The notes under the pieces are model-generated. The model was given only the letters and a program-made list of their open reading frames with translations, searched no databases and was not told the DNA's origin. From positions 1-22,269 of the IMG/VR virus record IMGVR_UViG_3300029448_000491: a stretch of DNA of 22,269 nucleotides. One strand, written 5' to 3'. Numbering within the stretch: the stretch's first letter is position 1; every line of letters starts with the position of its first letter. The position numbers were made by a program, and so were the translations under genes. Shown here piece by piece: positions 7,667 through 12,106 of this stretch. This DNA is from a virus.

Positions 7667-9397
7667 TTACTCGACTGGTTCAAAGTGGATCTGTCCGTCT
7701 TCTGAGATGGCGAAGTCAATCTCCTTTGTCCTACCAGTAGTTCGGTCATAGAAGAGGCATGATGCCACTCCGGCTCGACCAGTAAGACGATTTTTAAGTA
7801 CTCGGATAGTAGTTGTATTAGCTACAACAGGATTCTCATTCTGACGATCACGCTCAAGAGCAATGACAGTGTTAGGTACACTAGCAAGCGAACCAGAGCC
7901 ACGGAGATCTTGTAGGGTAATGCGATCACCCTCTTCATAAGCTTTCTGTGTTTTCTTAAGCTGAGACACTACGTCGATACGAACACCAGTACGAGAGACT
8001 AGAGCGCGTAGTTCTTTCATCAAGTTGTCGATGATAAGACGCTCAGACCCGCCGCCGTCGATGTCCTTCTCGTTAGAGCCAGCCATACCAACAGCAGCCG
8101 CCGTGATGTGGTCTAGAACAATAACATCAACACCAAGAGATACAGCCATGAACTCCATACGAGCAGCAAGATTCTGTAGGGCATTGTTACCAAGGTGATC
8201 ATAGATATAGAAGCTTGTGCCAGTGAGTCGCTCTCTAGCTTGGGCATACTCTTCATCTGTAAGATCGTCTACAATCTCTACATCAACTGGATCCTTGCCC
8301 ATCTTTTGTCTAAGCTCATTCATTGTACGAGCAGCCTTGATAGCACGGACTGGCTTATTGATGAGGAGACTGATCATGTCTTCAATAGTTTCTTGAGGCG
8401 ATTCCTCAAGCATGATAGCACCAACAGATCTGCCTTCTTCAAGGTGGTGGCACATCATCTCTCGTAGAATAGTAGACTTACCAGATCCAGTACCAGAAGT
8501 CCATAGGGTAATCTCTCCTGATCGCTGTCCAATAAGGAAGTCAGTGAGCTTGTCATAGGGAAAGGGATACACACGACCCTCTAGTGCGCTGGTTTCAGCA
8601 ACAACATTAGAGACATGTAGAATCTCGTCTGGTGAGTAAAGGGGAGCTTGCCATGTAGCGTTGACCACAGCCTTGCCTTCGCCCTTGACTAAACACTCGT
8701 TAGCGTCCTTGTAAGGGAGCGATGCAATCCTGCACTTACCGGGAGGGAGCAACTCGGCAACTTCCTTAGCAGCTTCACGACCGGGATCGTCTTGATCAAA
8801 CATAATAACAACTTCATCGTAGCTTGTAACAAACTCAAGGTTGTCTTTGATAGAGCGGGCAGCACCCTTGGCTCCAGCAGGGACTGACACAACAGGCCAG
8901 CTATTGTTAAGTAGCTGATTGACAGTCATCGCATCAATCTCACCCTCGGTGATAACAAGACGCTTGGCATTGTTTGATTGATTAGTCCAGACATTTTGAC
9001 CAAACAAAGGAGAGTTCTTTGCGGTGCCTTTCCAAAAGAACGTCTTATCAGGACCGCGAAGCTTTTGTCCTACAATAGATGCGTCCCTGTAATAGTTTGC
9101 AATGTGTACCTCTTTGCCATTGATCTTGGCAATCTGGTATCCATAGATCCTAGCAGTCTTTTCTGTAATACCACGATCAGACAATGCGGTGTATGATCCG
9201 TTGTGGGGCTTGAATGCAACATGTTCTTGTGAGTATTGAGTAGTCATCCTAGAGGATTCTCCTTTGTCGTTTTCATAATGTCCGCAGCTAAAACAATAGC
9301 CGCTTCCATCATCGTAGATAGCCAAGTTATCTTCTGAGTTGTCCCGGCCAGCAGAGGCGCATGAAGGACATTGCTTACGATCAACCAGTGTTCCCAT
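7667..9397 (-). CDS. Fused DNA primase-helicase, T7 gp4-like
   Basis: A 576-residue replisome protein when started at the ATG at 9397. This start has GGAGA about 8 nt upstream and puts the zinc finger at the usual place; a longer frame up to 9475 would run deep into the upstream gene. Domains in order are a zinc ribbon CPSC...CFSC (Cys10, 13, 35, 38), a TOPRIM primase core with VITEGEIDA (Glu151) and MFDQDDPG (Asp201, Asp203), and a RecA-like hexameric helicase with Walker A SGTGSGKST (about 301-309), Walker B VIVLDH and SQLKKTQK. It unwinds the fork and primes the lagging strand with the DNA polymerase encoded next. All key motifs are intact. Confidence 0.95.
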   Translation of the reverse strand: MGTLVDRKQCPSCASAGRDNSEDNLAIYDDGSGYCFSCGHYENDKGESSRMTTQYSQEHVAFKPHNGSYTALSDRGITEKTARIYGYQIAKINGKEVHIANYYRDASIVGQKLRGPDKTFFWKGTAKNSPLFGQNVWTNQSNNAKRLVITEGEIDAMTVNQLLNNSWPVVSVPAGAKGAARSIKDNLEFVTSYDEVVIMFDQDDPGREAAKEVAELLPPGKCRIASLPYKDANECLVKGEGKAVVNATWQAPLYSPDEILHVSNVVAETSALEGRVYPFPYDKLTDFLIGQRSGEITLWTSGTGSGKSTILREMMCHHLEEGRSVGAIMLEESPQETIEDMISLLINKPVRAIKAARTMNELRQKMGKDPVDVEIVDDLTDEEYAQARERLTGTSFYIYDHLGNNALQNLAARMEFMAVSLGVDVIVLDHITAAAVGMAGSNEKDIDGGGSERLIIDNLMKELRALVSRTGVRIDVVSQLKKTQKAYEEGDRITLQDLRGSGSLASVPNTVIALERDRQNENPVVANTTTIRVLKNRLTGRAGVASCLFYDRTTGRTKEIDFAISEDGQIHFEPVE

Positions 9398-10367: not shown

Positions 10368-10441
10368 CACTCCCGGCAGGACTCGAACCTGCAACCTGCG
10401 GATTAGAAGTCCGCTGCTCTGTCCAGTTGAGCTACGAGAGC
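10368..10441 (-). tRNA. tRNA-Arg (anticodon UCU)
   Basis: A complete 74-nt cloverleaf. The acceptor GCTCTCG pairs with CGGGAGT with two G-U pairs and G as discriminator. The D arm is TAGCTCAACTGGACAGAGCA. The anticodon stem GCGGA/TCCGC holds loop CTTCTAA (UCU, codon AGA). The T arm is GCAGG-TTCGAGT-CCTGC. CCA is not encoded. The first 10 nt overlap the end of the deaminase-like gene, whose TAG stop is tRNA positions 8-10. Confidence 0.95.
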
Positions 10442-10788
10442 AAGATGATACCCTCTCTCGTAGTGTAGTATATGTTGTCAAATATTTCCAGACACCAAGG
10501 CAAGCATTTAACACAGGGCTTTGACATTCGCATCTGACCATATCTATTATATCGAAAGTTAATCAGGGTAAGTTTAGTTCTTTGATCAATCTTTCTGAGA
10601 GCATCAAGCTCTGAATGTAATTCATTGTACCTGTACCCATATTTAGCTGCAAGGGGATGAGTCTTGTGTTGATTAATACCAACTGATAGGATTTTATTTC
10701 CTCTGCAAATAATAGAGCAGTGTTTTTTAGACAACGGATTATTAATACAATGCTTCAGACCAATGGGAACAACCGCATCTAGCTTCAC
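10432..10788 (-). CDS. Cytidine/deoxycytidylate-deaminase-fold protein
   Basis: A 118-residue protein with the zinc site of the deaminase family: HSELDA (His58, catalytic Glu60) and KPCVKC (Cys92, Cys95). In phages such proteins often deaminate dCMP to dUMP, the substrate for thymidylate synthase, which would link it to ThyX in this window. The small size also fits a tRNA or free-nucleoside deaminase, so the substrate is not settled. It begins with GTG at 10788, overlapping the previous stop as GTGA. It ends inside tRNA-Arg. Confidence 0.8.
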   Translation of the reverse strand: MKLDAVVPIGLKHCINNPLSKKHCSIICRGNKILSVGINQHKTHPLAAKYGYRYNELHSELDALRKIDQRTKLTLINFRYNRYGQMRMSKPCVKCLPWCLEIFDNIYYTTREGIILLS

Positions 10789-11309
10789 GATTCACATCCT
10801 TTATAATAATGCTCAAGATACAAATCTGTCCATACTGGCATTCTGCTTGTAATAAGAAACTCAGCAGCTTTGATACTTCTTGTGTCAACTAAATCCTTTT
10901 TAATGTGCCAATGAGAAAGAATAGTATAACAAGAAGCATTTGGAAATAGGTTTAACATTTTTGAAATCTCATCCACTATTTCTATTTTATCGGGGTACTT
11001 TTCTTTTAACAAAGATCTAAGCCTATTGAACACCGGGTCTGGCTCTCCTTTTACAAAAGAAGATCCCCATCCGGGTACTTTGTACCCTCTAGATAAAGCA
11101 CCATACGCTTCAGCAATAGGATTGGAACAAGAAAGCAATCTATTTGTTTGACTAAGAGGAGCGTGTATATTTCCTAATGTAAGTAATGCAGCGGGAAGGG
11201 TAGAAAAGAAATCTTTACCAAGCATTGCACCTTGAATAATAGCAGTAGTACTAGCGTTAAATCTTTTAGCAATCGTTTGATGTACTAATTCTAGTTCTTT
11301 TAGAATCAT
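10785..11309 (-). CDS. Citrate-synthase-like protein, C-terminal-type fragment, probably not catalytic
   Basis: A 174-residue protein that I read as the citrate synthase fold. It has LPAALLTLGNIHAPLSQTNR (His49 where the first catalytic His would be), then YKVPGWGSSFVKGEPDPVFN, which parallels the family's vPGfGHxvyk...DPR. It also has FPNASCYTILSHW and ITSRMPVWTDLYLEHY, matching the C-terminal R...GWxxHxxE region. In the second motif the catalytic His of GFGH is Ser83. It is less than half the length of a bacterial citrate synthase (about 430). AAGGAG lies 6 nt upstream of the ATG, right after the tRNA-Ile-like gene. The family assignment is from pattern matching and is moderately sure; function is unknown. 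It could bind acyl-CoA or host citrate synthase. Confidence 0.68.
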   Translation of the reverse strand: MILKELELVHQTIAKRFNASTTAIIQGAMLGKDFFSTLPAALLTLGNIHAPLSQTNRLLSCSNPIAEAYGALSRGYKVPGWGSSFVKGEPDPVFNRLRSLLKEKYPDKIEIVDEISKMLNLFPNASCYTILSHWHIKKDLVDTRSIKAAEFLITSRMPVWTDLYLEHYYKGCES

Positions 11310-11324
11310 AATATCTCCTTGTAA

Positions 11325-11404
11325 TCCTCAGAGCAGGATTCGAACCTGCGACATGACGGCGATTATAAGTCACCCGCTACAACGCCTACGCAGCTTGCCT
11401 GAGG
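11325..11404 (-). tRNA. Unusual tRNA, probable tRNA-Ile (anticodon UAU)
   Basis: An 80-nt tRNA-like sequence. The acceptor CCTCAGG pairs with TCTGAGG (last pair G-U), and A is the discriminator. The D arm GCTGC-GTAGGCGTT-GTAGC has a GG in the loop. The anticodon stem GGTGA/TCGCC holds loop CTTATAA (UAU, codon AUA). The T arm GCAGG-TTCGAAT-CCTGC is canonical. Oddities are a three-base linker CAA without U8 between acceptor and D stem, a five-bp D stem and an 8-nt variable loop. It may be a divergent working tRNA or a decaying copy. Confidence 0.62.
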
Positions 11405-11408
11405 TAAA

Positions 11409-11439
11409 CCCCCCTGCCTCCAACTCGGAGACAGAGGGG
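11409..11439 (-). terminator. Strong 13-bp hairpin before tRNA-Ile-like gene (terminator or processing site)
   Basis: Read on the minus strand, CCCCTCTGTCTCC and GGAGGCAGGGGGG form a 13-bp stem around a GAGTT loop. Two of the pairs are G-U, which would be A/C mismatches on the other strand, so the minus-strand RNA is the form that folds. It is followed by only TTTA before the tRNA. That is a weak U-tract for an intrinsic terminator, so an RNase processing signal is as likely. Confidence 0.55.
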
Positions 11440-11595
11440 CGGATTGACGGTCCTGCTGGTAAGTTCAACAGAACCAAGGTAGCGACAATCTAAATCTTGA
11501 GGCAACGTAGATACTCTTCACCTGCTTAGCAATATTGGATCACATTGTTAAAGTTGTGAATGAATAGATTTAGATGCCGCACCAGTCAAACCAAA
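11440..11595 (-). ncRNA. Predicted structured RNA with a three-way junction, between two tRNAs
   Basis: No ORF fits here, but the minus strand folds very well. P1 pairs GGTTTGAC (11592-11585) with GTCAATCC (11448-11441), with one T-T mismatch. P2 pairs GGTGCGGCATCTAAATCT (11583-11566) with 11497-11478, giving 18 bp with two single-T bulges. P3 is a 10-bp hairpin (11475-11449) with loop AACTTAC and three G-U pairs. Linkers between helices are 1, 2 and 0 nt, which makes a tight three-way junction. Inside P2 two more hairpins are possible, TCACA/TGTGA and GCAGGTG/TACGTTGC. Several G-U pairs would be mismatches on the plus strand, so the RNA is minus-strand. I do not recognise an RNA class; marine phage RNAs that sit near tRNAs (for example the manA or GOLLD classes) should be compared. 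Confidence 0.62.
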
Positions 11596-11669
11596 TAGCT
11601 CCGGTGGGATTCGAACCCACACTGTATGGATTTTAAGTCCACTGCCTCTGCCAATTGGGCTACGGAGCC
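11596..11669 (-). tRNA. tRNA-Leu (anticodon UAA) with short variable loop
   Basis: A 74-nt cloverleaf. The acceptor GGCTCCG pairs with CGGAGCT and A is the discriminator. The D arm is TAGCCCAATTGGCAGAGGC. The anticodon stem GTGGA/TCCAT holds loop CTTAAAA (UAA, codon UUA). The variable loop ACAGT is only 5 nt, and the T arm is GTGGG-TTCGAAT-CCCAC. Bacterial leucine tRNAs normally have a long variable arm, so the identity rests on the anticodon. Confidence 0.92.
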
Positions 11670-11673
11670 AAAG

Positions 11674-11701
11674 GAGCAGTAGACCCTTCAGCCTACTGCT
11701 C
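11674..11701 (-). promoter_or_regulatory. 9-bp hairpin at the end of the resolvase gene, just upstream of tRNA-Leu
   Basis: GAGCAGTAG and CTACTGCTC form a perfect 9-bp stem with a 10-nt loop on the minus-strand RNA. It contains the TAG stop of the RusA-like gene and is followed by CTTT and then the tRNA 5' end. It may be an RNase processing signal or an attenuator. The next tRNA downstream has the same arrangement: hairpin, 4 nt, tRNA. Confidence 0.5.
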
Positions 11702-12106
11702 GGTAATACTTATTACAAAGTATCCCTCTTCACCTTCAGCCGCCCAACCTTTAGAAGCTTCAATAGAAACAATTTGAGAATCATCTACCCACAGTTTCTT
11801 ATTTAAACAATCTAAGCAAGCTTTAATCCCATTGTCAACGTCCCACTTAGGATAATTAAACTTAGTTGTTTTAGGTTTTTTAACATTCATGCTTAAGGAA
11901 ACATGTAGCGGTCCCTCGAGTAATGGATAACCTTCACTAAACACCTCGTCTACTACGCCTGCTGCTTCAGCAATAAACCTTTTATAAGGTCCAGCGTAGT
12001 AAGCGTGAGGCCTCCCGCCCCGACCCTTAGAGAGCCGGGGCCGGGAAGCCGCTACGGGGTTTAGGGGAAAAACCCACTCAAGGGAGTCTTTAGAACGGGA
12101 GGGCAT
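11693..12106 (-). CDS. rusA: RusA-family Holliday junction resolvase
   Basis: A 137-residue endonuclease. It has NPVAASRPRLSKGRGG near the N-terminus and the family's acidic core, PKWDVDNGIKACLDCLN (Asp89, Asp91, Asp99) followed by WVDDSQI (Asp108). RusA enzymes cut four-way junctions; in T7-like phages a resolvase clears branched replication intermediates before packaging, a role T7 gives to the unrelated gp3. The start is uncertain: ATG at 12106 has GGAAG 12 nt upstream, while ATG at 12127 has no clear site. I prefer 12106 because it overlaps the SSB end less. The gene ends in a hairpin beside tRNA-Leu. Confidence 0.88.
   Translation of the reverse strand: MPSRSKDSLEWVFPLNPVAASRPRLSKGRGGRPHAYYAGPYKRFIAEAAGVVDEVFSEGYPLLEGPLHVSLSMNVKKPKTTKFNYPKWDVDNGIKACLDCLNKKLWVDDSQIVSIEASKGWAAEGEEGYFVISITEQ

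Follow-up and report, generated by a model that had tools for sequence, protein, structure and literature searches.

What kind of RNA, if any, is encoded between two neighboring tRNA genes of an uncultured phage, and what might it do? The window analyzed here (the whole stretch of DNA, 22,269 bases in length) is an IMG/VR virus record whose minus strand carries a single-subunit RNA polymerase (RNAP), a Gp2.5-like protein, a RusA resolvase, a T7-type primase/helicase, DNA polymerase A, and ribonucleotide reductase. Its RNAP is only ~27% identical to those of the closest isolates; deposited isolates thus include no close relative of the window lineage. The source of the element described below is an uncultured T7-like phage lineage.

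Genomic setting and fold of the window RNA

An initial annotation had placed a structured minus-strand RNA in the interval 11440-11595, between two tRNA genes and at a site where no open reading frame (ORF) fits, and its description of the surroundings was borne out. ARAGORN identified tRNA-Leu(UAA) (11595..11670, minus strand; Rfam tRNA model, 63.5 bits) directly 5' of the RNA and an 80-nt tRNA-Ile(UAU) (11325..11404, minus strand) directly 3' of it, both of which are also found in three relatives (L005, L028, and L044), and no ORF of at least 50 aa overlaps 11310-11692 on either strand. The tRNA-Ile(UAU) has a long D-loop and falls below the Rfam tRNA gathering score, yet it is conserved in the four phages; relatives at ~50% RNAP identity have an ordinary tRNA-Ile(UAU) of 74 to 75 nt. 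Between tRNA-Ile and the next gene, the window holds a 174-aa ORF (10785-11309) that is not present in L005, L028, or L044. It has no Pfam or PHROG match, its motifs recall citrate synthase as judged by eye only, and relatives at 40% identity occur in three other phage contigs. A further ORF of 118 aa (10432-10788), likewise without a Pfam match, contains HSELDA...PCVKC, which resembles the cytidine/deoxycytidylate deaminase motif.

On the other side of tRNA-Leu, a hairpin (GAGCAGUAG...CUACUGCUC; 11674..11701, minus strand) lies over the RusA stop codon and ends 3 nt before the tRNA. The corresponding hairpin of the relatives contains GAACAG...CUGUUC, a compensatory change from G-C to A-U. Separately, very strong hairpins (-35 to -41 kcal/mol in 70 nt), which are among the strongest of each genome, were observed inside the RusA coding sequence of all four genomes concerned (window, 11990-12059, minus strand; G001, ~9140-9210, G002, ~37260-37330, and G003, ~57400-57470, in gene-strand coordinates); their sequences differ, and their codons possibly differ as well.

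The MFE structure of the minus strand contained all three stems of the initial annotation, together with its linkers of 1, 2, and 0 nt. P1 consists of 8 pairs with one U-U mismatch (5' strand GGUUUGAC, 11585..11592; 3' strand GUCAAUCC, 11441..11448; both minus strand). P2 consists of 18 bp (3+6+9), with its 5' strand at 11566..11583, in a region that varies among relatives, and its 3' strand, AGAUUUAGAUUGUCGCUACC, with two single-base U bulges, at 11478..11497 (both minus strand). P3 (11449..11475, minus strand) is a hairpin of 10 bp with a 7-nt loop. Of the pairs inspected in P1, at the base of P2, and in P3, almost all had probabilities of 0.84 to 1.00. The folding energy of the minus strand over 11440-11595 was -54.7 kcal/mol, whereas its shuffled versions averaged -32.3 kcal/mol (z, -6.30; 0/200 shuffles as good), and the plus strand had a z of -2.64; thus, the RNA belongs to the minus strand, which carries the genes as well, as had been proposed from the G-U pairs of the stems. 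Two details of the proposed fold required revision. Where two further hairpins had been described inside P2, the MFE showed one irregular distal arm (11498..11565, minus strand), neither the length nor the sequence of which is conserved. Moreover, the interval does correspond to a structured RNA, but its extent misses a strong hairpin belonging to the element, namely P4 (11408..11440, minus strand), a 14-bp GC-rich hairpin that follows P1 with no gap, ends 3 nt before tRNA-Ile, and is kept in the window and its three relatives (the window clade, or clade 1).

Conservation of the element in two clades

The RusA proteins of L005, L028, and L044 are 85 to 89% identical, and the tRNA order is unchanged, with tRNA-tRNA spacers of 120, 172, and 120 nt, respectively, versus 190 nt in the window. 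Within the window clade, the 3' half of the spacer is nearly identical (CGCUACC, in the P2 3' strand, is the same throughout), while the 5' half is variable both in sequence and in length, the P2 region being ~95 nt in the window versus ~40 nt in L005 and L044. Despite these differing 5' strands, the three-way junction is formed by all four members: the window pairs GGUUUGAC (P1) and GGU-GCG (P2) with the conserved 3' strands, and in L005 and L044, GGGUUG makes P1 and GGUAG makes P2 against 3' strands identical to those of the window. When only the 5' part was shuffled, z values of -4.6, -4.6, -2.8, and -4.0 were obtained for the four members, and the same pairing arose by chance in 21, 37, 1, and 0 of 500 shuffles; the junction across differing 5' strands is not due to chance.

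Covariation in P1 to P3, which had been put forward as a check on the fold, was in no case two-sided, P3 showing one-sided changes and P1 and P2 varying in the 5' strand only, between two sub-lineages. With two sub-lineages and changes confined to one side, P1 and P2 represent pairing that has been retained rather than statistical covariation. Among the four stems, two-sided covariation was seen in P4 only, which is 100% paired in 4 sequences and has 2 pairs changed on both sides.

Scans of IMG/VR with the core of the element and with the adjacent protein yielded 10 further distinct elements, for a total of 14, and two clades are now known to carry it. The RNAPs of the two clades are ~37% identical, and gene order is broadly shared. 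In clade 2, a late-gene stop codon precedes the element by a few nucleotides, and the ribosome-binding site for a small basic protein comes just 3' of it; the gene of this protein is followed by the terminase. No tRNAs stand beside it, and P1 and P2 are absent from the MFE, which shows P3 followed by an 11-bp GC hairpin unrelated in sequence to the P4 of the window. On paper, CUACCUUGG could also pair with the 3' strand of P4 in clade 2, but none of the clade 2 MFEs tested used this alternative. The three-way junction, originally regarded as the key feature, was thus found in the four window-clade members, but clade 2 has P3 and the GC hairpin alone. As judged from this sequence comparison, the junction is a local elaboration of the window clade, and the putative P3-P4 kernel is the part kept by evolution. 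In clade 1, a long distance separates the element from the gene of the basic protein. The clade 1 genome G001 has a homologue of the gene that precedes the clade 2 element, with the next gene directly after its stop codon and no element between them; therefore, the element either changed place in one lineage or was separately acquired.

The 20-mer UUGGUUCUGUUGAACUUACC (11458..11477, minus strand), which spans the linker, the P3 5' strand, the loop AACUUAC, and the first base of the 3' strand, is identical in 14/14 distinct elements (4 from the window clade and 10 from clade 2). The CGCUACC block 5' of it varies within clade 2. In the P3 3' strand, variation is confined to positions opposite U, where A and G replace each other and the pairing is preserved; changes in P3 are thus one-sided, and 95.6% of cells are paired in 9 distinct rows. 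Stems broken in close relatives, against which the initial annotation had cautioned, were not observed, except for two inner pairs of P3 that are U-U mismatches in one clade 2 subgroup. Within clade 2, the element is 96 to 97% identical versus ~80% in the upstream coding sequence, and of the invariant stretches in 1.4 kb, the four longest (21, 19, 18, and 16 nt) begin in or just after it. One-base indels between copies leave no shared reading frame, which, together with the tRNA context, argues against a peptide-coding function.

In each of 8 phage records, a 27-nt core is present in exactly one copy, with zero mismatches and on the gene strand, and no weaker second copy of it was found in phage genomes. 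Known members only were returned when IMG/VR was scanned with a pattern leaving five P3 pairs free, a covariance model of P3 found no additional members among 62 loci, and relatives with RNAPs ~50% identical had no copy in the sequence stretches examined. Similarly, no matching element has been reported in known phages, and a description of the element was not found in the papers searched. Among 84,980 prokaryotic species genomes, a 26-nt pattern gave one chance match, in a coding gene whose product, as judged by eye, resembles an NRPS adenylation domain.

A looser pattern, CGCTACCTTN{4,34}GAACTTACC, was also tried and was set aside; its new matches look like chance or unrelated loci, and two types (L058/L061/L065 and L076), located near tRNA clusters, run in the opposite sense and differ in structure. 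As a separate observation, structured-looking spacers near tRNA clusters in L061 (~1352-1393), L065, L058, L077, and L076 (13085-13200) hold GGTAAGTTC...AAGGTAGCG on the tRNA strand and belong to no Rfam family. Their contigs are from unrelated phages, some of >190 kb, and L076 also carries a permuted tmRNA. In relatives at 50% identity, strongly folding inter-tRNA spacers occur in L030 (1658-1747) and L039 (5440-5520), the latter being a near-perfect stem of -34.2 kcal/mol in 81 nt, and these may be other tRNA-cluster RNAs.

Possible modes of action

An RNA freed by processing and acting in trans by way of its P3 strand and loop is in our view the best explanation of the element, although we hold it tentatively and at somewhat less than an even chance. 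The element would be a small structured RNA cotranscribed with the minus-strand genes, and its kernel would be the P3 hairpin with its invariant 20-nt 5' strand and loop, with P4, the strong hairpin 3' of P3, protecting the 3' side. In the window clade, where tRNAs abut the element at both ends, P1 and P2 would extend this kernel into a three-way junction, and processing of the tRNA-Leu 3' end and the tRNA-Ile 5' end would free a discrete RNA of ~190 nt; in clade 2, the element would be cut out of the late polycistronic mRNA. The P3 strand and loop would then contact a host or phage protein or RNA in a sequence-specific manner, and it is from the occurrence of the same sequence at two unrelated places, one per genome, that we infer action in trans. 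A conserved complementary target was not found in phage genomes, and phage-encoded antisense targets were rejected, given that the best duplexes differ by genome and are near those of the reversed query. It is conceivable, though on balance doubtful, that the element represents a new family of trans-acting phage RNAs whose hallmark is a hairpin with an invariant 20-nt strand and loop; such RNAs would relocate between unrelated genome positions with their sequence intact, remain at exactly one copy in each genome, and target a conserved component of the host, for example as a decoy or anti-defence RNA.

Since the element is directly upstream of another gene in both clades, a function in cis would also explain its placement. 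P3 and P4 would then punctuate long phage transcripts as a signal for processing, pausing, or stability, with the RNA cut or protected immediately ahead of the following gene, which is tRNA-Ile in clade 1 and, in clade 2, the small basic protein with its ribosome-binding site. We regard such a cis signal as possible but rather unlikely. It is consistent with the strong hairpin that follows P3 and ends a few nucleotides before the next gene in 14/14 elements, with the conservation of P4 between clades as structure and not as sequence, and with the additional hairpin, bearing a compensatory change, 3 nt before tRNA-Leu. However, a hairpin that directs processing or blocks exonucleases has no need of 20 invariant nucleotides, nor would an element that serves a single downstream gene have to retain its sequence after a move to another operon. 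An intrinsic terminator is likewise not indicated, with 0 found by consensus; the nucleotides after P4 are UUUA in the window and AUUCAAGG in clade 2, which lacks a U tract.

An antisense interaction with helices 69-71 of 23S rRNA was considered as well and is highly improbable. In the window RNA, CGCUACCUU, GAACUUACC, and AGGACCGU are complementary to 1913-1951 of 23S rRNA (E. coli 23S), and full complementarity exists between the P3 loop (AACUUAC) and the loop of helix 71 (GUAAGUU). The window core reached 27 nt of complementarity in three blocks, with 0/3000 shuffles as good, and clade 2 (L047) reached 20 nt, with 7/3000 shuffles as good, in a test that was post hoc. Nevertheless, the CGCUACCUU block is altered in further copies (CGC-ACCUU, CGCUACUUU, CGC-GCCUU, and CGCUAUCUU), AGGACCGU is lost in clade 2, and the invariant complement is only 9 nt, which is about chance level.

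Returning to trans action through P3, which we prefer, the kernel (20 invariant nucleotides plus a hairpin) offers a small, testable bait for the partner, and the two genomic contexts, combined with the natural variants, separate sequence-constrained from structure-constrained positions. The element would further illustrate that a phage RNA can change its genomic place without a change in sequence.

Comparison with known RNAs and systems

P3 might alternatively be bound by one phage or host protein, as a translational operator of the small basic protein, as a decoy of a host defence or tRNA-binding protein, or as a mimic of a CRISPR repeat, all of which we consider, taken together, unlikely. 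The element is single copy, intergenic, and on the gene strand, with an invariant strand and loop, as would suit such a binding site; however, its clade 1 copies are distant from the gene of that protein. P3, with its 10-bp stem and 7-nt loop, is also unlike common CRISPR repeats, which differ in stem and loop sizes, and, as the 26-nt pattern had no real match in the 84,980 genomes, no identical CRISPR repeat is known there. Solitary repeat units, or RNA anti-CRISPRs, in viral genomes are a known precedent (PMC10651486). The element is similar to them in being a single-copy conserved hairpin in a viral intergenic region and differs from them in that its sequence was not matched as a repeat in the searched prokaryotic genomes.

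Because P3 lacks two-sided covariation, part of its conservation could act at the DNA level, in which case the element would be a promoter, a phage-polymerase pause or packaging signal, or a recombination site. The class II T7 RNA polymerase termination signal (PMC9624206, PMC11617373), ATCTGTT, is found at concatemer junctions, and TTCTGTT, one base off this signal, is present in the invariant core of the element, in phages with a T7-like polymerase; in addition, the 20 bp are invariant, single copy, and, in clade 2, near the terminase. A DNA site is nonetheless improbable. The first base differs, the A of ATCTGTT being missing in all copies, and there is no downstream U run. Moreover, contig ends show no clustering at the element, and the A-G exchanges opposite U keep the RNA pairing but would give A-C mismatches on the other strand. 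One copy in each of 8 records, with no weak copies, speaks against a repeated phage promoter, and the intergenic words shared were only A-rich and ribosome-binding-site-like ones, with no repeated promoter-like word among them.

HDV-like theta ribozymes sit directly 3' of phage tRNAs (PMC10879173), as the window element does, and a ribozyme of this type would cleave at the tRNA-Leu 3' end. That the element is such a ribozyme is hardly credible. A descriptor (7-bp P1 from the G at the tRNA 3' end, 3-bp P3 before P1', J4/2 catalytic C, and nested double pseudoknot), scanned without a positive control, gave 0 matches in the four window-clade spacers and L047, so that no nested pseudoknot was found; P2 and P3 close within P1, Rfam ribozyme models gave no match, and the clade 2 element has no tRNA.

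No Rfam 15 covariance model matched the element at the gathering score or at E values up to 10, in keeping with the initial view that its exact fold belongs to no known class. The kinship then suggested with manA, a structured RNA in phage genomes near tRNAs, was not supported, as manA gave no match even at an E value of 10. The species 1 and 2 RNAs of T4 (rnaC and rnaD; 139 and 119 nt), annotated as small stable RNAs within the phage tRNA cluster, resemble the element in being structured phage RNAs in a tRNA cluster setting, and structured RNAs of phage tRNA clusters have been known since these two, although we know of no solved role for RNAs of this type. T4, unlike the source of the element, is not a T7-like phage. 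Similarity is confined to matches of ≤9-mers (E of 0.2 or more), the folds differ, and the P3 model has no match in rnaC or rnaD, so homology receives no support from the comparison of sequence or structure. The suggestion of a new phage RNA is in agreement with the present results: the element is structured, noncoding, on the gene strand, and outside the Rfam families. On the basis of its sequence and predicted fold, it is probably an undescribed small viral RNA and a candidate for a new family rather than a member of a described one.
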